DNA of 64,000 nt, from contig NC_092320.1 in assembly GCF_036785885.1 (NCBI RefSeq), positions 18,229,557 through 18,293,556 on the forward strand, read 5' to 3'. How positions within the stretch are numbered: the stretch's first letter is position 1; every line of letters starts with the position of its first letter. This DNA is from Coffea arabica (lineage: Eukaryota; Streptophyta; Magnoliopsida; Gentianales; Rubiaceae). This document shows, piece by piece, positions 2,995 to 42,290 of this stretch. Made by a program: the position numbers and the translations under genes. Below the pieces are notes generated by a model. It saw only the letters and a program-made list of their open reading frames with translations, was not told where the DNA came from and made no database searches.

Positions 2995-4286
2995 ATGGCT
3001 GGTGCAGAACCACAATTCAAGGCCACTATGCTTCTCCTCGGCCTGCTTTTAGTTGCAACCCTTGATTTTACAGGTTTTCCTCTTCGGCCTGAAGTGCAAT
3101 GCAATGTAGCCATATTTTGATCAGAGTCAGACAGACATTAAATGACTTTCACTAATCAACAAGTGCTTTTTTTTTTTTTAACTCTTTCAAGCAAAAGTTA
3201 AAATGTGGAAGTTTTCATTACCAGTTTTATATCCTACAGAATGAATGTGAAGCCTTTTTACATTATCTGCCCTGTTTGGAGAAGGAACTTAATAGTTTTA
3301 ATCTAATGGTCATGTATATGAAATTTGATGCAGGGGCTCAAACAGGAGTTTGTTATGGAAGGCTTGGAAGTAATCTTCCATCTCCAGCAGATGTTGTCGC
3401 CCTGTGCAACCAAAGAAACATCAAAAGAATGCGAATCTATGATCCTCATCAACCCACCCTTCAAGCCCTTGGAGGTTCAAACATTGAAGTCATTCTTGGG
3501 GTTCCCAACACCGATCTACAGAATGTTGCTGCAAGCCAAGCTAATGCAAATAATTGGGTTCAAATCAACGTCAGGAAGTATCCCAACGTCAAATTCAGGT
3601 ACATTGCAGTTGGAAATGAAGTCAGCCCACTAACAGGGACGGCTCAGTACACAAACTTTCTTCTCCCTGCCATCAGAAACATCTTCAACGCAGTTTCTGC
3701 AGCGGGGCTCAGAAACCAGATCAAAGTTTCCACTGCTATTGAAACTGGACTAGTTGCAAATGGTTATCCTCCATCAGCTGGCACTTTCCAACCTCAAGCT
3801 CAAAATTTTATCAAGCCCATTGTTCAGTTCTTAGCTGGCAACGGTGCCCCATTACTCGTTAATGTATATCCATACTTTTCCTACACAGGCAATCCCAAGA
3901 GCATAGCTCTTGAATATGCTCTTTTTACATCTTCGGGCATCACCACACCAGATGGTGTGAAGTATCAAAATCTTTTTGATGCTCTCGTGGATGCAACATA
4001 CTCGGCGCTCGAAAAGGCTGGAGGCTCATCAGTCCAAATTGTTGTATCGGAGACTGGTTGGCCATCAGCTGGAGGACAAGCGACATCAATAGACAATGCC
4101 AGGACTTACAACAATAACCTGATCAAGCATGTCAATGGGAATTCTGGAACCCCAAAAAGGCCTGGAAGGGCTATTGAGACTTACATTTTTGATTTGTTTG
4201 ATGAAGATCAAAAGAGTCCAGAATATGAGAAGCATTTTGGGCTCTTTCTTCCAAATAGGCAGCCAAAGTACCCAATCAGTTTCTAA
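2995..4286 (+). CDS. Glucan endo-1,3-beta-glucosidase (GH17, PR-2 type), copy 1
   Basis: Predicted 343-aa secreted enzyme that hydrolyses internal 1,3-beta-glucan bonds, as in callose or fungal walls. Exons are 2995-3073 and 3334-4286; the 260-bp phase-1 intron splits the end of the signal peptide, the standard position in this family. Residues 1-26 (MAGAEPQF..., then a Leu-rich core) form the signal peptide, and the mature part starts near [11 protein letters not shown]17 catalytic residues are present: acid/base E122 in VGNEVSP and nucleophile E266 in VVSETGWPS. The protein ends at KYPISF, with no C-terminal vacuolar extension and no X8 domain, so an apoplastic acidic-type enzyme is likely. 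The start is the ATG in a CCATGG context shared by the paralogs. The gene is intact. Pathogen or stress inducibility is inferred from the family, not seen. Confidence 0.95.
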
Positions 4287-11576: not shown

Positions 11577-12949
11577 ATGTTTGTTATTGGGCTGCTGTTA
11601 CTTGCAACATTTGATTATACAGGTTTTCCTCTCTATCCTGAATTACAATGCAATGTAGCCTCTAAAATCTAAAATCTTGATATGCAGAGTGTTTGCAGAA
11701 TTATAGATCAAAAGTTTTGTAAATGGCATATGAAAAGCCTAAAATCAGACCTGGTGACACTAGCAATTACTAGGGCTGGTAAGCCATACTGTAGTCAGTT
11801 GTCAAATGACTTTCACCAATTAATAAGTAAGTGGTTTCTCTACTTGTTCAGAAAAAGAGGGGAAATGTGGAGGTATTCATTATCAGTTTATCCTACAAAA
11901 TGAATGTAAAGCTTTGTTACATAATCAGCCCTGGTTTGCAGAATGAGCTTAATCAGGTCAATCAAATCATTGTGCATATGAAATTTGATGCAGGGGCTCA
12001 AACAGGAGTTTGTTATGGAAGGCTTGGGAGCGGACTTCCATCTCCCGCAGATGTTGTAGCCCTTTGCAAACAGAACAACATCAAAAGAATGCGAATTTAC
12101 GATCCTGATCAATCCACACTTCAAGCCCTAGCAGGTTCAAATATTGAAGTCATTCTTGGGGTTCCCAACACTGATCTTCAGAATGTTGCTGCAAGCCAAG
12201 ATAATGCAAATAATTGGGTCAAAAACAATGTCATCAATTATCCTAATGTCAAATTCAGGTACATTGCAGTTGGAAATGAAATCAGCCCACTAAAATGCAT
12301 GGCTGGGTGCCCAGACTTTGTTCTCCCTGCCATCCGAAACATCTTCAACGCAATTTCTGCAGCTGGGCTAGGAAACCAGATCAAAGTTTCCACTGCTGTT
12401 GAAACTGGACTAATTGGAATTAGTTTTCCTCCATCAGCTGGCACTTTCCAACCTCAAGTCCAAATGTTTATCAATCCCATAGTTCAGTTCTTAGCTAGCA
12501 AAGGCGCCCCATTACTCGTTAACGTGCATCTGTACTATGTCTACATAAACAATCCCGAGAGCGTAGCTCTTGACTTTGCTCTTTTTACTGCTTCGGGCAT
12601 TACCCTACCAGATGGTGTAAAGTATCAAAATCTTTTTGATGTTATCTTGGATGCAATATACTCGGCCATCGAAGGGGTCGGAGGGTCATCTGTCGAAATT
12701 GTTGTATCAGAGACAGGCTGGCCATCAGATGGAGGAGGACAAGCTACATCAATTCACAATGCCAGGACTTACAACAATAACCTGATTAAGCATGTCAATG
12801 GGAGTTCTGGAACCCCAAGAAGGCCTGGAAAAGCAATTGAAACTTACATTTTTAATTTGTTTGATGAAGATCAAAAGATTCCAGAATATGAGAATCACTT
12901 TGGGATCTTTCTTCCAAATAAGAAGGGAAAGTACCCAATCAGTTTCTAA
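11577..12949 (+). CDS. GH17 beta-1,3-glucanase copy 2, damaged or altered start
   Basis: Exon 2 (11994-12949) is a complete GH17 catalytic region with VGNEISP and VVSETGWPS intact. In exon 1 the ancestral ATG at 11537 is followed after eight codons by an in-frame TGA, created by a 7-bp insertion (TGAATTC) absent from genes 1, 3 and 4. An in-frame ATG at 11577 could restart translation with a shortened signal peptide ([16 protein letters not shown]), giving exon 1 11577-11622, a 371-bp intron and a 333-aa product. The short version loses the polar n-region. The protein is also the most diverged of the young copies: CMAGC replaces the paralogs' TGTAQ segment after the acid/base motif, and NVHLYYVY replaces NVYPYFSY near the cleft. 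It may be relaxing toward a pseudogene or be a modified enzyme. Confidence 0.7.
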
Positions 12950-16120: not shown

Positions 16121-17517
16121 ATGGCTGGCGCAGAACAACAATTCAAGGCCGCTATGTTTGTTATTGGGCTGCTGCTACTTGCGACACTTGATTATACAGG
16201 TTTTCCTCTCTATCCTGAAGTACAAAGCAATGTAGCGTCTAAAATCTAAAATCTTAATATGCAGAATGTTTGCAGAATTATAGATCAAAAGTTTTGTGAA
16301 TGGCATATGAAAGTCTAAAACCAGACCCGGCAACATTATCGATTACTAGGGCTGCTAAGCCATACTTTAATCAGATATTAAATGACTTTAACTTATTAAT
16401 AAGTGCTTTCTTTGCTTGTTCGAAAAATGGGGAAACTGTGGAACTTTTCATTATCAGTTTATCCTACAAAATGAATGTAAACCTTTCTTACTAAATCAGC
16501 CCTGGTTTGCAGACTGAACTAAATCTGGTCAATCTAATCATTGTGCATATGAAATTTGATGCAGGGGCTCAAACAGGCGTTTGCTATGGAAGGCTTGGGA
16601 GTAATCTTCCATCTCCAGCAGATGTTGTAGCCCTTTGCAACCAGAACAACATCAAAAGAATGCGAATCTACGATCCTGATCAATCCACTCTTCAAGCCCT
16701 AGGAGGTTCAAATATTGAAGTCATTCTTGGGGTTCCCAACACTGATCTTCAGAACGTTGCTGCAAGCCAAGATAATGCAAATACTTGGGTTCAAAACAAT
16801 GTAAGGAATTATCCCAATGTCAAATTCAGGTACATCGCAGTTGGAAATGAAGTCAGCCCAATAAAGGGCGACACAGCTCAATACGCAAACTTTCTTCTCC
16901 CTGCCATCCAAAACATCTTCAACGCAATTTCTGCGGCAGGGCTAGGCATCAAAGTTTCCACTGCTGTTGAAACTGAACTAGTTGGAAATAATTTTCCTCC
17001 ATCAGGTGGCACTTTCAAACCTGAAGTCCAGAATTTTATCAATCCCATTGTTCAGTTCTTAGCTAGCAAGGGCGCCCCATTACTCGTTAACGTGTATCCA
17101 TACTTTGCCTACATATTCAATTCCCAGAGCATAGCTCTTGAATATGCTCTTTTTACATCTTCGGGCATTACCACACCAGATGGTGTGAAGTATCAAAATC
17201 TTCTTGATGCTCTCTTGGATGCAACATACTCAGCGCTCGAAAGGGCCGGAGGCCAATCTGTCGAAATTGTTGTATCAGAAACCGGTTGGCCATCAGATGG
17301 AGGAGGACAAGCGACATCAATAGACAATGCCAGGACTTACAACACTAACCTGATTGGGCATGTCAATGGGAATTCTGGAACCCCAAAAAGGCCTGGAAGA
17401 GCTATTGAGACTTACATTTTTGATTTGTTTGATGAAGATCAAAAGAGTCCAGACTATGAGAAGCATTTTGGGCTCTTTCTTCCAAATAGGCAGCCAAAGT
17501 ACCCAATCAGCTTCTAA
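16121..17517 (+). CDS. Glucan endo-1,3-beta-glucosidase (GH17), copy 3
   Basis: Intact 343-aa gene with exons 16121-16199 and 16565-17517 and a 365-bp phase-1 intron in the family position. The signal peptide is [20 protein letters not shown].... The catalytic motifs VGNEVSP and [13 protein letters not shown] are present and the protein ends KYPISF without a vacuolar extension. Relative to copy 1 it has KGDTAQY after the acid/base motif, GLGIK where copy 1 has GLRNQIK, and AYIFNSQ instead of SYTGNPK at the cleft loop. Exon 2 is very close to copy 1 at both DNA and protein level. The first exon and intron resemble copy 2 more than copy 1 ([15 protein letters not shown]), hinting that copies 2 and 3 share a closer ancestor or have converted each other. 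Confidence 0.95.
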
Positions 17518-19107: not shown

Positions 19108-19494
19108 AGCAAACATAACCCCACCTAGTCGACATCTAGCAAAAAAACAAGCTGCTCATGTATATTACAAGACTAGAATAGTTGGGGAAAAATTAGCCAC
19201 TGATTTTGGGTGGCTAGCATATATGTCCCAGCAAAGTGGCATATATATTAACTTCAGGACATATTAATTTGATTCATAATGTCCTTATTTTACATATACA
19301 TAAGAAGCACTTTGTGTTTCTACGGTGCAGCTATTTTCAAGTGCCACTTTGCTTCCATGTGTTGTACTTTTGAGTGCTGAAACCTTTGCTAGAGCTGTTG
19401 TACCTGAGGTGGAGCTTCAAGTGCACTGCATATTTTCTGGATTGTGTTTTGTGCTCCTGCCACTTATGGGCCCCGACTTTTAAGAAATTCAGAG

Positions 19495-19730
19495 AGATAT
19501 ATATATATCCTACGTATAATATTCCTTTATATTATATACATATATATATTTTTTTTCGTTTGTAAAAAAAACCATTGTGTATGCTGAAGGCATTTTGTAT
19601 ATACATATATATATGTATATTTAGAGATATATCTAAGATAAAAAATATATATATATATATATATGTATATTTAGAGATATATAAAATAGAGATATATAAA
19701 ATAGAGATATATCTAAGATAAAAAATTTAA
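19495..19730. repeat. TA-rich repeats, with a duplicated 'gtatatttagagatat' block
   Basis: TA microsatellite tracts alternate with two copies of a 'tatatttagagatatat' block and repeated 'aaaatagagatat' units. This is the likely neighbourhood of the Helitron 5' end but could equally be flank. Confidence 0.6.
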
Positions 19731-20576
19731 TCACATGTTTCTGTAAATCGTTTATTATTGTAATCCTTTATTATTTTTTATATGTAAAGAGATAAAACAA
19801 TCCACTCACTTCAACGAAAATTTAGGTAAGTGCATAGGTTCCTTGTCATCTAAAAACATACGTGTCATTGTTTACAATTTTTTACGTATTATTTAGCTCA
19901 ACTATTGAACGAAAATTTATGTAGACACACAGGTTCCTTATCATTATCATCATTTCAAAAACATACGTGTCATGTATCATTCAGCTCTTGCTTACAATTC
20001 ATGCTTAGCTTTTGTTAATTGTCGGCCATTTACCTTTGCTGTTTACCAAATTCTTCTGGACAGTATCTGTTTTCTGCATCATTGCATGGCACCGCTTGGT
20101 TATATTTGTAATTTCCCATTTCTTTCATTGACTTGTAAGATACAAACAGTCTTCATGCAAAATCGACTGCATACTTCAGCTTTGACTTCCATGTAAACCT
20201 TGTTCTCGGTTCTTTTGAATACAACAATTCCCACGCAAGGTATTCTCTGAACTTCCGTCTCTCTGGTTTCTTTGTTTATCAGAAATTCTACGGTTACTGC
20301 TTTAATATCTTTTATTCAGCTCTCCAACAAATTTGCTGCACTGCTGTCTGCCTTAGCTACCAATGGAGGTATTGTTTTGCTAGATTTATTAACAGGTCTG
20401 TTAGTCCATAGTTTATGTCGGTCGTTTTTGCTGTTGTTGCTATCAGTATTTTCTGCTTATCACGCTTAACAAGCTCCTACTTTATTCACTGTGTAATTAT
20501 ATTATAAAAAATCTCTTCCATTATAATACGGACAACATGAGTTCCTCTAAGTTACATCCACCTAACAATGCTCTGA

Positions 20577-23500
20577 ATGTCCGTGAGAAAAAAATCTGAG
20601 AAGAATAGAAAAAAGAGAGAAAGATTTGCTGCTCTGTCGGTAGAAGAAAAAGAAGCTCATCGAAAGAAAAATAGAGATGCGTATCACAGAAGAAAGTTAA
20701 GCAAACTCTTGTCCAAGCCACTTGCTGAACAATCTCAGCAGATTTCCAGACCATCAGATACTCCAGGCTCTGGTTTACTAGCTATTTCTAACAACTGTGC
20801 TGATGGTAGCTATTTCCACCGATGCAATAACCTGTTGCCACGGACGAAGATATTAATGTCAGAATTAAGTGAACATGGTCGATGTGTCACATGTATGTTT
20901 CGCAAGCTTCGTTCACCCTTTCTTTTTTTTTTGTTGTCTGCATGTTGAGTTTCTGTTTACCCTCTATTGCAGCTCCAAATCTTCATGGAAATGCATCTGC
21001 TCAGAAAATTGATGCGTATGTCACCAAAATTGCCTCTCCTAATCCTCAGCTCTCTGCATGTAACAGTCAATCTGGTGGATCAAAATTAAAGAACAGTGTG
21101 TCTCACTTTTCCACTTATGAACAAGGTCTTCATCCCTGTTACTTTTATAGAAGTATTACTACCATTATCATAACTGTTGCTTCAAAATACCATTGTATTG
21201 TTCTAACATTCTTCAATTGCAGGTAGTTCTTCAGGCACGAACCACAAGCATGTCTGCTCACATCATACTACTCCATACACTTCAGGTGGACCACTACTTT
21301 ACCTAACTTTGTATTAAATATTGCCAGATTTTATTGGCCATAGAAATGTATTTTTGAACATATAACTGGCCACCAGGTTCTTCATACTTATTCATTTATT
21401 CTTTATGTTAAACTTACAGCTAACTCATTTGTCTGTATGAGCTGCTACAACTTCTCTCCAGAGAGTATTGAACAAGTTCCAGGTATTTGATGCTTCAGTA
21501 CCGTCATATATTTTGTTTCTTCTTAAATTACATTCAGTTTGTTTACTGTAAGTGACACGATGGGTTCCTCTTTATAGAACTGTCATCACTTGTTACACGA
21601 TATCAGGCTACTCGACAGTTACTAGGATCTACTGCTAACAAAAATGGAGGTTTAGGTTGTCCTCTGTCACCAAGTTTCATTATTGTAATACTTGCTACAC
21701 CATCAGTCTACTTCTCACCGTTGCCAAAATCTTCTGAATAAATGTACAGCCAACACAAAATCAGTGCTGGAAAAAACTCAGACCGTTAATAAGACAACTA
21801 AGAGACCAAAAGGTATTTTGAATATAGTTTATTGTACATGTAGAGTTCTGTTCCAAACCTCTACTCTTCTGTTCAATAGTTACAATTACATTGAATGTAT
21901 TGTAGGGAGAACAAATCCAGATGGGATTGGAGCATTGAAATTCATTAACGATGAACCAGACATGTTGCCTTCAAAGCCACATTGCAGTTACTGTGAGGCA
22001 AAAAAGTTCCATTCTGAAACACCAAATTTTTGTTGTTCTAATGGTGAAGTGGTTCTCCAGCAAAACAAACTTCCGGATATTTTGATAGAACTATATACTG
22101 GTCGGTCTGATGAAGCCGCTTCTTTTAGAACATATGTCAGGACATACAACAACATGTTTGGCTTCACCTCTTTTGGAGTGCATTATGATAAATCCCTCTG
22201 CAAAAGAACTAATGGCATTTACACATTCAAAGTCCAAGGACAAACTTATCACTTCATCAAAGATCTGATTCCATCTGGAGGTTCTGGCGTCTATCTGCAG
22301 CTATATTTCCATGACACAGACCATGAGTTAGAAAACAGACTAGCTATATCACAGAAGCTGACAGAGAGTATAGTAAAAAAAATTATGCATATGATGGAAT
22401 CCAATCCTTACGCTTCTTTTCTTCGAAGCTTAAAACATGTTCCAGATCTTGACTCATACCAGATAGTACTTAAATCCCATTCAGAAAATGATCAGAGGGT
22501 CTTCAACCAACCAACTGCATCTCAAATTGCAGCTTTATGGGTGGAGGGTCAGGAATTTAAAGAAGGATACACGAGACATATTCAAATCTATACAAAAGAG
22601 GGTAAAGACCACCTGTTACAATACTATTATGGATGCTATGATCCATTGCAGTATCCACTGTTATTCCCGCTTGGAGAAACTGGATGGCATCCTGGTATAA
22701 GAAGGATAACTATGGAAAATCCAAAGAAGAGAAAGAGATGCAACAAAAAAGCTAGCTGCACTACTCCTTTTCCTAATTACAGATCTGCACAAGAGCTACT
22801 AGATGCTGAGGAGCAAGGTATGCATAGAATCATAATCTAGAATTATATTCTCCAGTATGTACTTATAAATATTATGATGCTTACATTGAACAATTGTATT
22901 GCAGGTTGTAACGATCTGGAAAACAATAAGGAGTTTGTATCAATGCGTGAGTATTATTCATATAAATTGCAGATGCGAGAAAAATATACTCCAAGTGTAC
23001 TTAATACTGGCAGACTGCTACAACAATATGTGATTGATATGTATATAAAGATAGAAACCCAGAGACTTGATTACTACAAGAATCGACAAGAATTAATAAG
23101 AAGAGAGCAGCTTCAAGGTATAATGGACAGTGTAGTAGCAGGGCATTGCCAGGGATCAAGGGTAGGGCAGCGAGTAATCCTCCCAGCTTCATTTATAGGT
23201 GGTCCACGTGATATGAGGAGAAGATATGTTGACGCCATGGCTCTTGTACAAAAATTCGGCAAACCAGATCTGTTCATTACAATGACCTGCAACCCTTCAT
23301 GGCCTGAGATCAAACAACATATGCTTCCTACTGATGAGGCTCATAACAGACCAGACTTATTAGCTCGGATTTTTCACGCTAAACTTGATCTTCTCAAAGA
23401 AGAACTCTTCAGAAAAGAAATCTTTGGACCAGTAGCTGCCTATACCTATGTAGTTGAGTTTCAAAAACGTGGTCTGCCCCATGGTCATTTTCTCATAATC

Positions 23501-26263
23501 TTGAAAGCAGGGTCCAAGCTCTACTCCACAGAATCTTATGATAACATTGTGAGTGCAGAAATTCCTGATAAGATGCCCAATCGACATTTATTTAATATGG
23601 TCCGAAAGCATATGATCCATGGTCCTTGCGGAAAACAAAATCCAGATAATGTTTGTATGCAAGGAAGTCAGAAGAAGAAGTGCAAAAATAATTACCCAAA
23701 GCCATTTGCTGATACAACCTTCCATGGAGAGAATACATATCCCACTTATCGCAGAAGGAAAGATGGAAAGAAAATAATAGTTCGCGGACATGAGTTGGAT
23801 AATAGATGGGTAGTTCCATACAATGGATATTTGTTAGCAAAATTTGACTGTCATATAAATGTAGAAATTTGCTCCACAGTGAAAGCCGTGAAGTATATAT
23901 ACAAGTATATATATAAGGGGCATGACAGAATACGTTTTAGAGTAAATTCAGATGCTTCTGATCGACCAGATTCTAACATCCAACCATCTGCAATTGATGA
24001 AATAAGGGAATTCCAGTCGGCTAGATGGGTATGTGCAGTAGAGGCAACTTGGAGAATCTTCAGATTCCAGCTAAGTGAAATCCATCCTTCTGTCATTCAC
24101 CTCCAGCTCCACTTAGAAAATTGCCAAGCAATGAATTTCACACCCGATCAGGACCTTCGAGATGTGGTGAGGAATAGGCATGCAAAAAGAACCATGTTAA
24201 CAGAATTCTTCTATATGAATTCAGTGGACAAACTGGCTCAGCATCTTAAGTGCACGTACAAAGAATTCCCAGAACACTTCGTTTGGTACCCTGGCAAGAA
24301 GAAATGGGAACCCAGAAAACAAAAGCATTCTATTGGTAGAATTGTCGCAGCAAGCATAGGAGAAGGAGAACGTTACTTTCTTAGATTACTCCTAACACAT
24401 GTTAGAGCTCCAACATCATTCGATGACCTCAAGACAATCAATGGAAAATATATCAGTACATTCCGTGATGCAGCTATCCTTAGAGGCTATTTTGAATCAG
24501 ATACGTCGCAGGAGCAATGTCTTGAAGAAGCTAGCTCGTACCAGATGCCATACATACTGAGAAGGCTATTTGCAACTCTCCTGGTACACTTTCCTCCATC
24601 AGATAGTAGATACCTTTGGAAAAAATTTGAATATTCTTTATCAGAAGATTTCATAAGAATGTCAGAATTTACACCTGATCAAATACGATACAAAGTACTT
24701 GAACAGATAAATAATTTTTTGCAATCAATGGGAAAAGACATCAACTCATATGCTCTGGTTCCACATGCTCTAAACTTTAATCATATGAACAAGAACACAA
24801 GAGACACAACAGCAGAAACAACAATCACTGTCCAAGAATCTGATCTCCAAGCAATTTATCAACTAAACTGTGACCAAAAAATTGCTTTTGATATAATTAT
24901 CGATGCAGTGTTCAAAATAAAGAAGGGTTGTTTTTTTATTGATGGCCCAGGCGGAACAGGCAAAACATTTCTCTATCGAGCACTCTTAGCTGAAGTGAGA
25001 TCAAAAGGATTCATAGCACTTGCTACAGCATCATGTGGAGTAGCAGCTTCAATATTACCTGGTGGAAGAACATCTCACTCAAGATTCAACATACCATTAG
25101 ATACAACCAAAAATACCAACTGCAGAATCAGCAAACAAAGTTCATCAGCACAACTTCTAAAATCAGCCAGCCTTATAATTTGGGATGAAGCTCCAATGAT
25201 GAATAAAATCTCAATAGAAGCTGTTGATAGATTACTCCAAGATTTAATGGACTGCAATGACTTATTTGGATCAAAGGTAATTGTCTTTGGAGGAGATTTT
25301 CGTCAGGTATTACCGGTTGTTACTAAAGGCACAAAAGTGGATTTTATTGATGCTTCCATAGTAAATTTATATATATGGCCACAACTTCATAAACTTCACC
25401 TGACAGAGAATATGAGAGCAAGACATGATCCTGAGTTCATTGAATATCTACTCCGTATTGGAAATGGAACAGAGCCTGTTATCAATAACAACTCTATCCA
25501 AATACATACTGCATTGCTGATAAGATACACAAATGACGAAGATTCCATCACAGAGCTCAGTAAGGCTGTATTCCCGGATTTAATGGCATTCTTCCATGAT
25601 GATTTTTCAGCCGTGAACCGTGCTATACTTACAACAAAGAACGAATTTGTTGATGACATCAACCAGAAAATCATACATCAATTACCTGGACAGGTCCAAG
25701 AATACATCAGTAGGGACAAATGCATTGACGATTCTGAACAGACAATCATGGAGGATTTCGTGAATGCCTTAACACCCAATGGATTTCCTCCTCACAGGCT
25801 GCTCCTCAAACCACATTGTCCAATTATGTTGCTCAGAAACATTGATCCCCCCCAAGGATTGTGCAATGGAACAAGGCTCATCTGCAAATCTTTAAACTCT
25901 AACATTATACATGCAGTAATAAGTTGTGGAGAGTTCACTGGGAAAGAGGTCTTTCTCCATCGAATATGCTTCAGAATTGAGACCAATCCAGACTCTCCAG
26001 TATCTTTTGAACGCATCCAGTTTCCTGTTCGACCCTGTTTCGCAATGACTATTAACAAAGCTCAAGGCCAGACGTTGGATTTTGTGGGAATATACTTACG
26101 TGAACCAGTTTTCTCACATGGACAGCTATATGTGGCAATGTCCAGAGCAAAAAATAAAAACTCAATTAAAATGCTCATCAAACCACCTATATTTGATCCT
26201 GAACAAGACTCAATAACAAATAATGTAGTGTATAAAGAGGTCCTCGATTTAGCACATGAATGA
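20577..26263 (+). CDS. Helitron RepHel: HUH nuclease plus PIF1-type helicase
   Basis: Transposase that nicks, transfers and unwinds Helitron DNA in rolling-circle transposition. The ATG at 20577 starts a Lys/Arg-rich region (KKSEKNRKKRERF). Small exons follow, separated by about 90-bp introns: 20577-20892, 20973-21125, 21223 on, and others. One joint near 21650-21710 I could not resolve. The large exons are 21906-22817 and 22905-26263. The first has a zinc-type motif (CSYC...CC) of the Helitron N-terminal domain. In the last, counting from the ATG at 22874: HUH motif PHGH (H203, H205), paired tyrosines Y341/Y345 in KYIYKYIYKG, Walker A GPGGTGKT at 691-698, Walker B WDEAP at 770-774, GGDFRQ at 806-811, and C-terminal QGQTLD and YVAMSRAKN. 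Every expected motif is present and this exon has no internal stop over 1119 codons. Confidence 0.92.
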
Positions 26264-28567
26264 TTTGCTCACTCACACACGTGCCACTCTATTATATTAT
26301 CTGTATTCTGTTTCTATATTTTTTTTCACAAAATCATCCACCAATTATTCTTTCAAGTTACAGGAAGACAGAAAAGTCATAGCATTTGCTGAAATTATTC
26401 CTGGACTTCGAGATTGGACAACAATAGTTCAGGTTCTTGACAAACAGAAGCCGCTCCTATCAAAAGCAGGAAATCGCTATCAGAAGCTTACACTCATTGA
26501 TGGGCAGGTAAATACACTACAAAACTTCCTGAATTCTTACTACACCTCAAAATACATCTCACATGTGAATGGAACCAAACCTTTTGTACAGGGCACCACA
26601 GTGGAGGCTATGATATACAAATCAGACATAGAATTCTTTCGCAACCACTTTCGCCTGTATATGCGTTACATGCTGTCCAATGCAAGAGTTGAATATACTC
26701 CACTGGAATATCGTGTACGTGAAAATCAATGTACTTGGTATATTGACAACTCCACTGTTGTCCAGGCAATGGATGAACCAAATCCCCCAGAAATTCCTCC
26801 TGTTTTCAGATTCACTCCTTTCAGAAGATTCTACCAACACATTGATGATACGTCAGACATAGGTAATATGCAAAACTCAGATATATAACTATCTCATATT
26901 TGAAAAACTGCTAATTAATTTCTCCTTGATGAATGCAAAGAACAGATATACTTGGCATTATCGCAGAGGTCCATCAACGATTTCACAAAGGCACTACCCC
27001 AACTAGAGAGATTGTAATCATAGACAAAAGGTAATCATTATTGTAAAGAGAGTAATCAGTCTATATAGATTGTGCCACCAAATTCAATAGATAGATATAA
27101 AAAAACTAATTTTAGACATCTAATCAAATACATTGCAGCTTCATGCCAGTCATCCTAACTCTCTGGGGTGATCACGAGACAGATGAAGGCCAAGCAATTG
27201 CCAACATGATTCAATCAATGCCACTCATTGTTGGCCTTCGACTGAGAGTTTCATCATACCACAGTAAGTATAGCTCAAAATATCACAAATCCACCATTCA
27301 TATACTTCACCACATCTTAGAATATTAATATCATCTTCAATTACATAAAACTGCAGCTCTAAATCTCTCAACAAAGTTTGGCTCAAGTGTTTTGGTGAAC
27401 CCCCCAATACAACAAGGTTCAATGTTGAGGCAATGGTAGGCGCTTGCTTCAATTAAACTGTCCTCCGATATGTTATAACAGAGTATTTGCAATATTCTTA
27501 TAACTAACAATTGATATCTGCTCACAAGGGCTATGGAAAACAAAACACAGATCAATGACCTCATAACACAAAGAGCATACCTAAACCGAACCAGCCTACT
27601 ACCACAACCTACAGAAGATGAGCTCTGCACTATCAAAGAGTTCCTGAATTTACCAATGGTGAGCTTCTGGAACTTTCAGAAATCTAACTTCTTGGATCAT
27701 TCACTTATCTACCAAATTAGGCAACTTAGAGTCTTATTTCTTCTCAGAAAAAAGCTTATTGGATTCAAGGAAGCCCACGATTCCTTGACAAAAGCCAACG
27801 GCTATGGTATAATGCATGCTCAAACTGTCACAAATCCTTCAGAGCTAAACCTCAATGGAAGATTATTTGCACTTCCTGCAACAAGAATGTTAACATTCTT
27901 CCAAGGTAACCATCACAACAGCAACTTCACAAACTACTTCAATAAACATTGTTTCACTAATTACCAACAACAATTACAGGAGTAGGTTAACCATAGAGCT
28001 GGCTGATTACTCTGGAAACCTCACACTTGATTTGTATGACAATGATGCACAGCAACTACTGCCCTTCACACTGCCACAGATTCAAGAACTCGAAGGCAAG
28101 GTCAGTATACATTCATATGCAAAACTTACCAACCTCCAATTAAACATAAACTCATATACATTGTATAGACTAATACTCAAACACAAATATTGCAGCATCA
28201 GCTTGATTACACAGCTATTGAACAGGCTATTGAGAGTAGTATCCTCACCTGCTTCGTGAAAAAAATGACTAGAAATCGTGGACCTGCCGACACAGAAAAA
28301 TACGCAGCTATCATAGTGCACAAAGCAAATGCTGCAGAACTAATATCAAGCACTTCTAGAAATTCAGCTTCAACTTCCACTCCTTCTACAAATCCACTTA
28401 CAGCTCCAGAATCATCGAACTTGACCACCAATTCAACAATTCTCAATGCAACTGCTCAAAGTTACAGGGGAGCAACAAATTTGGACAGCAATTTGTTCAC
28501 AACACTCAAAATCACAGAAACTCCAACTAAGAAACAACGCACTGACCCGACTGACATGGAGCTGTAG
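26256..28567 (+). CDS. Helitron RPA70-like single-strand DNA-binding protein
   Basis: Single-stranded-DNA binding protein related to RPA large subunit, carried by many plant Helitrons and thought to coat ssDNA during rolling-circle replication. Eight exons join in frame to 558 aa: 26256-26862, 26946-27030, 27139-27263, 27357-27435, 27529-27658, 27748-27905, 27980-28100 and 28196-28567, all with GT..AG introns of 74-108 bp. Landmarks are an OB-fold beginning at VIAFAEIIPGLRDW, a second OB-fold region (ILTLWGDHE, LSTKFGSSVLVNPP), and the RPA C-terminal zinc ribbon with CSNC...CTSC in exon 6, followed by LADYSGNLTLDLYD. The tail is Ser/Thr-rich and ends near KKQRTD. The start is uncertain: the ATG at 26256 overlaps the RepHel stop, and its first 36 codons look intron-like, so the true first exon may begin near 26365 or join from RepHel. 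Confidence 0.85.
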
Positions 28568-28578
28568 ATATAGTATAT

Positions 28579-28837
28579 GCATCTATGCTTTTGACCAACC
28601 TTTTGAACATCTGATGAACTGCCATCTCCATCAGTGTACATAGGCTATCGTTTGTGGGTTGCTAAAAGGTCTACACCAAGGCATTAGTCTACCCTACTCC
28701 AAACTATCTGCATCAAAGCTTTTGACCAACCTTTTGAACATCTGATGAACTGCCATCTCCATCAATGTACATAGGCTATCGTTTGTGCCTTGCTAAAAGG
28801 TCTACGCCAGGGAATTAGTCTACCCTACTCTAAACCA
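28579..28837 (+). repeat. Tandem duplication of about 130 bp downstream of the RPA gene
   Basis: Two adjacent copies (about 28579-28707 and 28708-28837) share 'cttttgaccaaccttttgaa' and 'aggctatcgtttgtg' and end in 'attagtctaccctactc'. They differ at only a few positions. They lie in the presumed 3' UTR. Confidence 0.85.
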
Positions 28838-29272
28838 CAGCTCCAATTATGTTTTTGAACATTTTGTATAGCATCATCAGATATGTAGCTGTGCTTTTGA
28901 AGTGCTGAAAATGAAATCAGATGTCTAACTATGATTTTGAAATACCATGTAATTGATGAATACTATTTCACGTTACTGTTAAAAAATGGTCAGCTCATTT
29001 CTCGAAATAATTAACCTGTGATTATAGACTTATAACCAGTAACTAGATACGAACCTCATATACTTTCATTATATCTAAACTCCAATTCAATAACACAATC
29101 ACAACATCTAATATGGTAAATTTATTACACAAACACTTACATTATATCAAAGTACCAAAACAAAATACACAGATCCAAATCCTTCAACATAGTGCAAGCC
29201 ACAAACTAATGGCCCCAACATCTTCACATAATAATTAGTACATATGAAACACAAAAAAAGCCCAGAAAACCA

Positions 29273-29617
29273 CTAAATCATAGCACTCTCAGCAGCTTTC
29301 TTCTGTTCTTCGACCTCAACTTGCATGCGGTGAGCAATTATCTGAAGAAAAGGAAATTCTCCAATATCTCCCAAAACTTCATCCAACACGGCAATCCTCT
29401 CAGATCTTCGATAAAAACTCTTAAACAAGTCATATATCTCATTCCGCAGCAAAATATTATTTGCCAAGGCCCTGTTAGAACTATTCAAACAGGTGGTATC
29501 TCCATTATGGCCAGGCAAAGACCCCACCACACCAGCTAATGACAATCGATTGAACATGACTTCAACATCAGGATGCAAATCACGTAATACCGCAAAACGA
29601 TTATGAGTATACTCCAT
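29273..29617 (-). CDS. Hypothetical 114-aa protein, antisense within Helitron
   Basis: An ATG-started ORF on the strand opposite RepHel and RPA, placed between the RPA gene and the 3' hairpin. The predicted protein is acidic to neutral with alternating hydrophobic and charged residues, suggesting helices (RNEIYDLFKSFYRR, AVLDEVLGDIGEF), and ends VEEQKKAAESAMI. Composition is protein-like and unlike the AT-rich surroundings, but I recognise no domain. It could be a captured host gene exon, a Helitron accessory gene, or chance. An exon upstream (above 29617) is possible but not evident. Confidence 0.45.
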   Translation of the reverse strand: MEYTHNRFAVLRDLHPDVEVMFNRLSLAGVVGSLPGHNGDTTCLNSSNRALANNILLRNEIYDLFKSFYRRSERIAVLDEVLGDIGEFPFLQIIAHRMQVEVEEQKKAAESAMI

Positions 29618-29929
29618 CTCTAAACCACGAAAAAAAACATCTACATCCTATGCTCATATATATATACACAAAATAGACAGTGAGTTTGCATGCCTGATCC
29701 CAAAGATTCCCAAAGCCAACATTTATGCACCCCTGAAAAAAAATCACATGCATCTGAACTCAATGAGACAAAACCATTTATTACACACTGCTCACGTGAA
29801 CTATCTATAAACTCTATGCATCTGATAAAGAAAACTTCAAAATCTGTACAGCACTACAATCTTGAAGTGTTGAAAATACTTCATCGTTCACCGCCATTAT
29901 TTCACCTGTCACGAAAACAAAATCTCGTA

Positions 29930-30157
29930 AACCAACAACTTAAACTCAGCAAACTAGCTCATACTTATACTCCACGTCTCACTTTCAAACAAATACGAAC
30001 TGTGCGCATGTGAATAGCAGAAAAAATTATTCTGCTGCTAAAGAACCAACAACTTAAACTCAGCAAACCAGCTCATACTTATACTCCACGTCTCACTTTC
30101 AAACAAATACGAACTGTGCGCATGTGAATAGCAGAAAAAATTACTCTGCTGCTAAAG
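29930..30157. repeat. Two 114-bp tandem repeats in the Helitron 3' subterminal region
   Basis: The block starting 'aaccaacaacttaaactcag' at 29930 recurs at 30044 with about two differences, and both end 'tctgctgctaaag'. Such low divergence means a recent duplication. The position, 300-500 bp inside the 3' end, could matter for end recognition. Confidence 0.9.
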
Positions 30158-30422
30158 AATGTGACGTACACTTAAAATAAACAAATGAAAGGATAACAAA
30201 CTCAGACCAAAAAAATTTGGCTAGAAGTATTATTTACCTATTAATGAAAACAATACACTATTAGTTAATAAAGACAATAAAAAATACTAACCAAATCAAA
30301 TTCAACAACTGCAAACATGAAAAAAATACTAAGCATTAAATACAGCCCACTGTACATTTTAAGCATCGACGCAGATTTTAAATACTAAGACTAACCAGTA
30401 CTGAACCACACTAACCTGCCGC

Positions 30423-30451
30423 CCGCGCATTGCGCGGAAAAACGCACCTAG
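30423..30451 (+). terminator. Helitron 3' end: hairpin plus CTAG
   Basis: A 6-bp stem, CCGCGC/GCGCGG, with an ATT loop (30423-30437) is followed by AAAAACGCAC and CTAG, then host T at 30452. This is the standard 3' transposition terminator of plant Helitrons, where the hairpin precedes CTRR by about 10 bases. Confidence 0.9.
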
Positions 30452-40798: not shown

Positions 40799-42290
40799 AT
40801 GGTTAGTGCAAAACCACAATCCAGGGCCATTATGATTTTGCTTGGCCTGCTGATAGTAGCTACCCTTGATTTCACAGGTCTTGCTTTCTCCTCTCCCTCC
40901 CCCTTCTCCCTATCAGTCTTTTTTATTAGATTTTAGGCAGATGTAGCATTGTGGTTTCTTTTTCAAGGCATCATCTAGACTGCTGATCTGATAAATTAGA
41001 ATTTTTGCAAAATAATTGACCTCTAATTTTTCTTTAGTTAAGCATATAAAGTCTGTTTGCATATTAAGCATACTAATCATGTCTACAAGCATAGGCGTAT
41101 TATTCCAAATCTAATTTTTGGTAGCACTTTGAAGGCTTGCTAAGCCATGCTGCACAATCACAAGCAAAATCAGCCAATTTTTAGAACATAATTTCTCAGG
41201 AACTGCCCCTACTAAGTACTAAGATTTAACTTTATTTCATCTACTAGATTAGTAAGGTGCAAAAACTTTTACATGGTTTTTTTTTCCCAGAAGAATGATT
41301 TCACTGATCAGTGAACATCGCATGTAATCTAATGCAGGAGCTCAGACAGGGGTTTGCTATGGAAGGCTGGGTAGCAGATTGCCATCTCCAGCAGATGTTG
41401 TGGCCCTATGCAAACAGAACAACATCAGAAGAATGCGAATCTACGATCCACATCGGCCAACCCTTCAAGCCCTTGGAGGATCAAACATTGAGCTCATACT
41501 GGGGGTCCCTAATATTGATCTTCAGAACATTGCTGCTAGCCAAGCTAGTGCCAATAATTGGGTCCACAACAATGTCAGAAACTATCCTAATGTCAGGTTC
41601 AGGTACATTGCCGTTGGAAATGAAGTCAGTCCTCTGAGAGACACAGCTCAGTACACAAGATTTCTTCTCCCTGCCATGCAAAACATCTATAATGCAATTT
41701 CTGCAGCAGGGCTAGGAAACCAGGTTAAAGTTTCCACTGCTGTTGAAACTGGACTAGTTGGACAGAGCTATCCTCCATCAGCTGGAATATTCAGACAAGA
41801 AGTTCGATCATTTATCAATCCCATCGTTCAGTTCTTAGCAAGAAACCGTGCCCCTTTACTTGTTAACGTGTATCCATTCTTTGCATACACAGGCAATCCC
41901 AGAGACATTAGTCTTCAGTATGCTCTTTTTACATCTTCTGGCATTGTTACACCAGATGGTGTAAGGTACCAAAATCTTTTCGATGCTCTTGTGGATGCTA
42001 CATACTCGGCACTTGAAAAGGCAGGAGGATCATCTATTGAAATTGTTGTATCAGAGAGTGGTTGGCCATCAGCAGGAGGACAAGCAACATCAATAGATAA
42101 TGCCAGAACTTACAACAGTAACTTGATTGGGCATGTGACAGGGGGATCAGGAACTCCAAAAAGGCCCCGAAGAAATATTGAAACATACATTTTTGCTTTG
42201 TTTGATGAAGATCAAAAGAGTCCAGAATATGAGAAGCATTTTGGACTCTTTCTGCCAAATAGGCAACCAAAGTACCAGATCACTTTCTGA
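40799..42290 (+). CDS. Glucan endo-1,3-beta-glucosidase (GH17), diverged copy 4
   Basis: Intact 343-aa gene with exons 40799-40877 and 41338-42290 and a 460-bp phase-1 intron in the same place as its paralogs. The signal peptide is [20 protein letters not shown].... Both catalytic motifs are present, VGNEVSP and VVSESGWPS (Ser in place of Thr after the nucleophile). The C-terminus is KYQITF, with no vacuolar tail. Arg content is higher than in copies 1-3 ([29 protein letters not shown]), which should raise the pI. Flanks show little similarity to units 1-3 beyond the promoter, so this is the oldest branch. It is cut off from the array by the Helitron and MITE cluster. Confidence 0.95.

Follow-up and report, generated by a model that had tools for sequence, protein, structure and literature searches.

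A recently transposed RepHel- and RPA-encoding Helitron of Coffea arabica with an antisense gene that appears to be kept by selection

The window analyzed here is a stretch of 64,000 nucleotides (C11:18229557-18293556), and the genome searched for its relatives comprised 1,197,963,845 bases in 131 contigs. A near-complete Helitron of the plant type, carrying RepHel and RPA genes, occupies positions 19282-30451. Its extent, ends and internal repeats are as follows.

19282-30451, plus strand: whole Helitron of 11,170 bp, from TCCTTATT to CACCTAG; common to copies on C1 (99.5%) and C10, with an empty site on C12
19282-19313, plus strand: 5′ terminus, five bases longer than the family tip TCCTTACATATACATAAG
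28574-28835, plus strand: tandem repeat, two units of 131 bp
29930-30159, plus strand: tandem repeat, two units of 114 bp
30423-30437, plus strand: 3′ hairpin with a 6-bp stem and a 3-nt loop
30448-30451, plus strand: 3′ terminal CTAG

Both ends are those of a Helitron, namely a 5′ TCC... and a 3′ CTAG with an upstream hairpin. The preliminary description had placed the element at 19500-30451; the element is real and its 3′ end at 30451 was retained, but the 5′ end was moved about 220 bp further out, to 19282. In the genome search, homology to both sister copies, on C1 and C10, began at 19290, and the homeologous empty site on C12 read AATG|TAACC, with the join falling before TCCTTATT. These two observations together define the element as 19282-30451 and its target as G|T. 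A 5′ end at 19500 or 19508 was ruled out, because both sister copies align on to 19290. At the other end, all three copies part ways right after CTAG|T (window position 30451). The hairpin and the CTAG described earlier were both present, although 16 of 200 shuffles of the hairpin region matched or bettered its folding, indicating that the hairpin by itself proves little. We also observed that the 5′ tip differs among copies, with five additional bases in the window and an additional TC in the C10 copy (C10:43542247 region) relative to its empty site. TCTCC also precedes the 5′ tip in the C21:42737170 region. Such variation may reflect imprecise processing of the 5′ end.

Four mutually similar open frames flank the Helitron (window positions 3156-4286, 11831-12949, 16495-17517 and 41328-42290). 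Three of them were scanned and belong to glycosyl hydrolase family 17, and the fourth (at 11831) is alike by eye. Of the adjoining defence gene cluster proposed earlier, the nearby glucanase genes stood, but nothing was seen that ties them to the Helitron.

The RepHel gene was modelled with eight exons, of which the small 5′ ones were predicted from splice consensus and alignment.

20537-20599, plus strand: family-conserved RepHel start ATG, whose frame is shifted here by the additional A at 20588, with a stop after 20 codons
20577-20892, plus strand: RepHel exon 1 from an alternative ATG; border not fully kept in relatives
20973-21125, plus strand: RepHel exon 2; borders weakly supported, relatives differing in length
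21223-21285, plus strand: RepHel exon 3; C1 and seven relatives agree in length and AG/GT
21420-21482, plus strand: RepHel exon 4; C1 and seven relatives agree in length and AG/GT
21578-21649, plus strand: RepHel exon 5; C1 and seven relatives agree in length and AG/GT
21750-21812, plus strand: RepHel exon 6; donor GT not conserved in five of seven relatives
21906-22817, plus strand: RepHel exon 7; Ka/Ks 0.12-0.13 jointly with exon 8
22905-26263, plus strand: RepHel exon 8, coding for Rep (HUH, two Tyr) and a PIF1-type helicase; 3,359 nt, no internal stop

Exon 8 matched the Pfam families Helitron_like_N (1.3e-57), PIF1 (PF05970, 1.5e-68) and Pif1_2B (3.4e-15). Its product aligned with the bat Helitron Helraiser (PDB 7lcc) over residues 4-1114 of 1,118 amino acids (E 1.5e-239), which brought the two tyrosines and the HUH stretch into register and placed the Walker lysine on the mutated position (K1068Q) of the 7lcc chain. 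The Rep and PIF1-helicase motifs and the stop-free last exon of the preliminary description were thus borne out. Exons 7 and 8 together gave Ka/Ks values of 0.12-0.13 against seven relatives. The HUH stretch, the tyrosines and the Walker lysine are presumed to have their usual roles in such proteins.

The RPA gene follows on the same strand.

26256-26507, plus strand: RPA exon 1; start uncertain, ATG overlapping the RepHel stop, frame not conserved in five of seven relatives
26592-26862, plus strand: RPA exon 2
26946-27030, plus strand: RPA exon 3
27139-27263, plus strand: RPA exon 4
27357-27435, plus strand: RPA exon 5
27529-27658, plus strand: RPA exon 6
27748-27905, plus strand: RPA exon 7, with the cysteine pairs of the C domain
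27980-28100, plus strand: RPA exon 8
28196-28567, plus strand: RPA exon 9

Eight RPA exons had been proposed to join in frame; the in-frame splicing held, but nine exons were needed and the first is uncertain. The spliced model scored above the Pfam cut-offs for Rep_fac-A_C (PF08646) and REPA_OB_2 (PF16900), with DUF223 just at its own, and gave Ka/Ks values of 0.18-0.20 against seven relatives.

The sister copy on C1 was 99.5% identical to the window element over 11,165 columns, and that on C10 aligned in three pieces at 99.2-99.7%. Mismatches numbered 39 of 11,163 between the window and C1, 31 of 11,041 between the window and C10, and 30 of 11,041 between C1 and C10 (0.27-0.35%), and the three copies sit in unrelated flanks. 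Empty sites were sought by searching the genome with the joined flanks of each copy. An uninterrupted homeologous site was found for the window copy at C12:17156302-17156793 (94%), for the C1 copy at C2:51425069-51425559 (96%; a further similar place lies on C1, 93%), and for the C10 copy at C9:48467357-48467738, where the alignment falls into two pieces (78% over the join itself and 89% past it). The different flanks and the uninterrupted homeologous sites indicate that all three copies were inserted after the homeologs had diverged. Furthermore, homeologous flanks aligned at two of the sites showed 8 of 500 and 5 of 503 mismatches, approximately 1.0-1.6% over few sites; the copies therefore differ less from one another than the homeologous flanks do, indicating that the insertions are younger than the homeolog split.

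The empty-site alignments showed no target-site duplication at any of the three copies, with a 2-bp (TC) ambiguity at the 5′ end of the C10 copy. The targets were G|T for the window copy, A|T for the C1 copy, and A|T in the own flank of the C10 copy but G|T in its homeolog. Helitrons prefer A|T targets, a preference that is not absolute; the base before 11 distinct TCC tips was A in eight, C in two and G in the window copy. The C10 copy is itself broken by a 7,769-bp insertion (C10:43546170-43553938) that ends in inverted repeats of 174 bp and is flanked on either side by a repeat of 9 bp of its target (window positions 23349-23357). We take this insertion to be Mutator-like, judging by the length of its repeats. 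Recent transposition of the three-copy family is well supported: the proposal of recent activity gained support from the near-identical copies on C1 and C10 and from three unrelated places that each have an uninterrupted homeologous counterpart.

The window copy itself is of recent origin and has changed slightly. At 20588 it has an extra A that is missing from all nine other copies compared (C1, C10, C9a, C9b, C9c, C2, C18, C20 and C3). Because this base shifts the frame, the conserved ATG at 20537 runs into a stop after 20 codons; the same RepHel model in the C1 copy is open for 1,679 codons. An alternative ATG at 20577, 40 bp past the conserved one, opens a frame that continues through all eight modelled exons. 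The genome contains 21 exact matches to the 24-base family 5′ tip, none of them in the window copy, and a reversed control gave none. The genes had been described as apparently undamaged, which did not hold, since the extra A displaces the conserved start and the 5′ tip is altered too. Nor is a stop-free RepHel exon rare. Among 41 exons scored from 1,853 initial candidates, the C10 one being covered in part, 32 were free of stops; stop-free RepHel is therefore common among the best-scoring copies, and the window copy is not special in this respect.

It is doubtful that the window copy is, as had been suggested, an intact autonomous source in which the shifted start and the changed tip are harmless or are errors of assembly. 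That the ATG at 20577 keeps the remaining RepHel frame open would fit such a source, as would the position of the extra base in an A run, since A runs are a common place of assembly errors. Against this, the extra base is absent from all nine other copies, and the tip that is exact at 21 places is missing here. The start-frame shift, which neither C1 nor C10 has, and the altered tip thus speak against the window copy as the source. The last 100 bases of the element matched nine places in the genome, three at 98-100% and six at 85-86%. By coordinates, each of these six has a 5′-end match in the same orientation 2.7-5.2 kb away. Such lengths are too short for RepHel and RPA, so these six elements look like non-autonomous relatives.

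Downstream of RPA, the opposite strand of the element carries a further frame.

29273-29617, minus strand: ORF3a, antisense gene of 114 codons and a stop codon, apparently under purifying selection

When the window copy was compared with C9a, C2 and C3, ORF3a was the sole frame of six free of internal stops; each of the five other frames was interrupted by 4-20 stops in the window copy, C9a, C2 or C3. The 124-codon stop-to-stop frame gave Ka/Ks values of 0.316, 0.321 and 0.387 against C9a, C2 and C3. Counted from the ATG, the values against C9a, C9b, C3 and C4 were 0.285, 0.285, 0.337 and 0.215, with Fisher p values of 1e-5, 1e-5, 1.7e-4 and 7.5e-10, which are approximate as the pairs are not independent. 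Among all ten pairs, nine fell at 0.20-0.34 and the near-identical pair C9a-C9b, with four changes, at 0.86. ORF3a appears, from this pattern of substitution, to be kept by natural selection. It is highly improbable that the conserved stretch is instead a DNA or RNA element and no protein gene; its location close to the 3′ terminus would suit such an element, but the changes fit minus frame 0 and the stops in the other five frames argue for coding.

The distribution of ORF3a follows that of one RepHel clade. By coordinates, all 25 copies whose RepHel identity is at least 77% have it at most 5 kb downstream of RepHel and on the other strand, and none of the 16 copies at 71% or less has it there. 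It was stop-free in 23 of the 25; the stops were in C20:1613173 and in a partial match, C9:54696545. A second paralogue, ORF3b, comes after it in 22 of the 25 copies and is absent only from the window's own three-copy family. All fifteen ORF3b pairs gave Ka/Ks values of 0.085-0.478, many with Ks above 1. No ORF3b match was seen in the coordinates inspected near the 16 distant RepHel copies, and in the distant copy C8, where RPA is clear, ORF3 was unmatched at E 1e-3 within 5.2 kb. A search of the genome for ORF3 gave 106 matches; the count was confined to 38 places with an identity of at least 63%, matches at 29-54% being left out, and 31 of these 38 were stop-free. ORF3a fell in no Pfam family, none of seven ORF3 proteins scanned against Pfam gave a match, and an ORF3 profile matched no solved structure in the PDB. 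A structure predicted for ORF3a without an alignment was all-helical and poor (mean pLDDT 53).

Stop-free ORF3b-like frames also occur away from RepHel, at C10:1153310-1153672, C9:1708334-1708684, C18:38432526-38432873 and C17:41448184-41448531, perhaps as two homeologous pairs, judging by contig number alone. Around C10:1153310, RepHel and RPA were unmatched in 5.6 kb (0.4 kb below and 4.8 kb above). Each of these stray frames may belong to a host gene or an old non-autonomous copy, or may be an adopted gene. In addition, C9:10737500-10764500 holds two related Helitrons head to tail, 12.2 kb apart, with a single exact 5′ tip and a single 3′ end identified for the pair; the junction between them consists of a cut ORF3b and a cut 5′ end.

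Helitrons often pick up pieces of genes, and ORF3a and ORF3b might accordingly be captured fragments of host genes, carried as passive cargo with no function for the element. The ORF3-like frames away from RepHel, such as that in the 5.6 kb around C10:1153310, and the broken ORF3a in two of 25 copies are in line with this idea. The authors who described rice Mothra so interpreted its reverse 96-amino-acid ORF, which is twice partly repeated; they call it a captured fragment that is probably functionless (PMC4683698). We nevertheless consider capture unlikely for ORF3, because Ka/Ks stayed under 0.5 in nine of ten ORF3a and fifteen of fifteen ORF3b pairs, which are not independent and in several of which Ks is near saturation, and because the frame co-occurs with RepHel, at constant position and strand in 25 of 25 copies. 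Retention of ORF3a and ORF3b by selection suggests that they probably contribute to the mobility or persistence of the element.

Compared with known systems, the window element is an ordinary kind of Helitron with good evidence of recent movement and an unnamed antisense gene. It shares a Rep/PIF1 helicase gene, an RPA-like gene, a 3′ hairpin with CTAG and the lack of target duplication with the RepHel- and RPA-bearing Helitrons of plants such as maize (ZmhelB), Arabidopsis and rice. To our knowledge, animal Helitrons lack RPA. The comparison with Helraiser concerns RepHel only: the last exon is alignable over almost its full length, and the HUH stretch and the tyrosine pair occupy corresponding positions. 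The window clade differs from the plant elements in its conserved antisense ORF3a (and ORF3b in relatives); a conserved antisense gene of plant Helitrons was found in none of the titles and abstract openings of the literature searched, which in part covered the top 10-15 of 508, 156 and 37 papers. The maize paper covers RepHel, RPA and captured gene fragments, and neither "antisense" nor "opposite" occurs in its main text (PMC3288121). Rice Mothra resembles the window element in having a reverse-oriented ORF and, in its putative mother element, RPA, but its ORF is 96 amino acids long, weakly APG6-like and located in a non-autonomous element (PMC4683698). The Mothra ORF may be a cognate of ORF3. 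Wheat Xuan-Feng is described as an active family in which the non-autonomous members have the same termini as a small number of putatively autonomous elements; like the window element it has a hairpin with CTAG. It shows an AT preference, and its mobility was shown by experiment, whereas that of the window family is inferred (PMC13286980).

Taken together, we regard the following account as highly probable. A plant RepHel- and RPA-encoding Helitron arrived at this site by rolling-circle transposition after the homeolog split; it belongs to a young three-copy family, the window copy being a slightly damaged product of the burst; the ORF3a and ORF3b genes of its clade were kept by selection and probably aid movement or persistence. 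By analogy with Helraiser and from knowledge of the family, RepHel would nick the ends with its two tyrosines, the PIF1-type helicase would peel off one strand, the 3′ hairpin would mark the end, and the strand would be joined into its target with no target-site duplication. RPA, as in the family at large, would coat the freed strand. ORF3a and ORF3b, as small opposite-strand genes of the clade, would presumably help the element to move or persist.

We further propose, tentatively, that the ORF3 pair could encode, from the opposite strand close to the 3′ end, dedicated, small, helix-rich accessory proteins of one plant Helitron clade, acting in end recognition, in counter-silencing or in regulation through convergent transcription. 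If so, autonomous plant Helitrons would include a gene set beyond RepHel and RPA, and if the reverse ORF of Mothra is homologous, this set possibly predates the split of monocots and dicots. Active autonomous plant Helitrons are few, and for this reason a young family whose differences can be counted and whose empty sites are exact makes useful material. If ORF3 is functional, the autonomous Helitrons of this clade would have a gene that is overlooked when RepHel and RPA are the search targets, and what such Helitrons require for movement would become testable.
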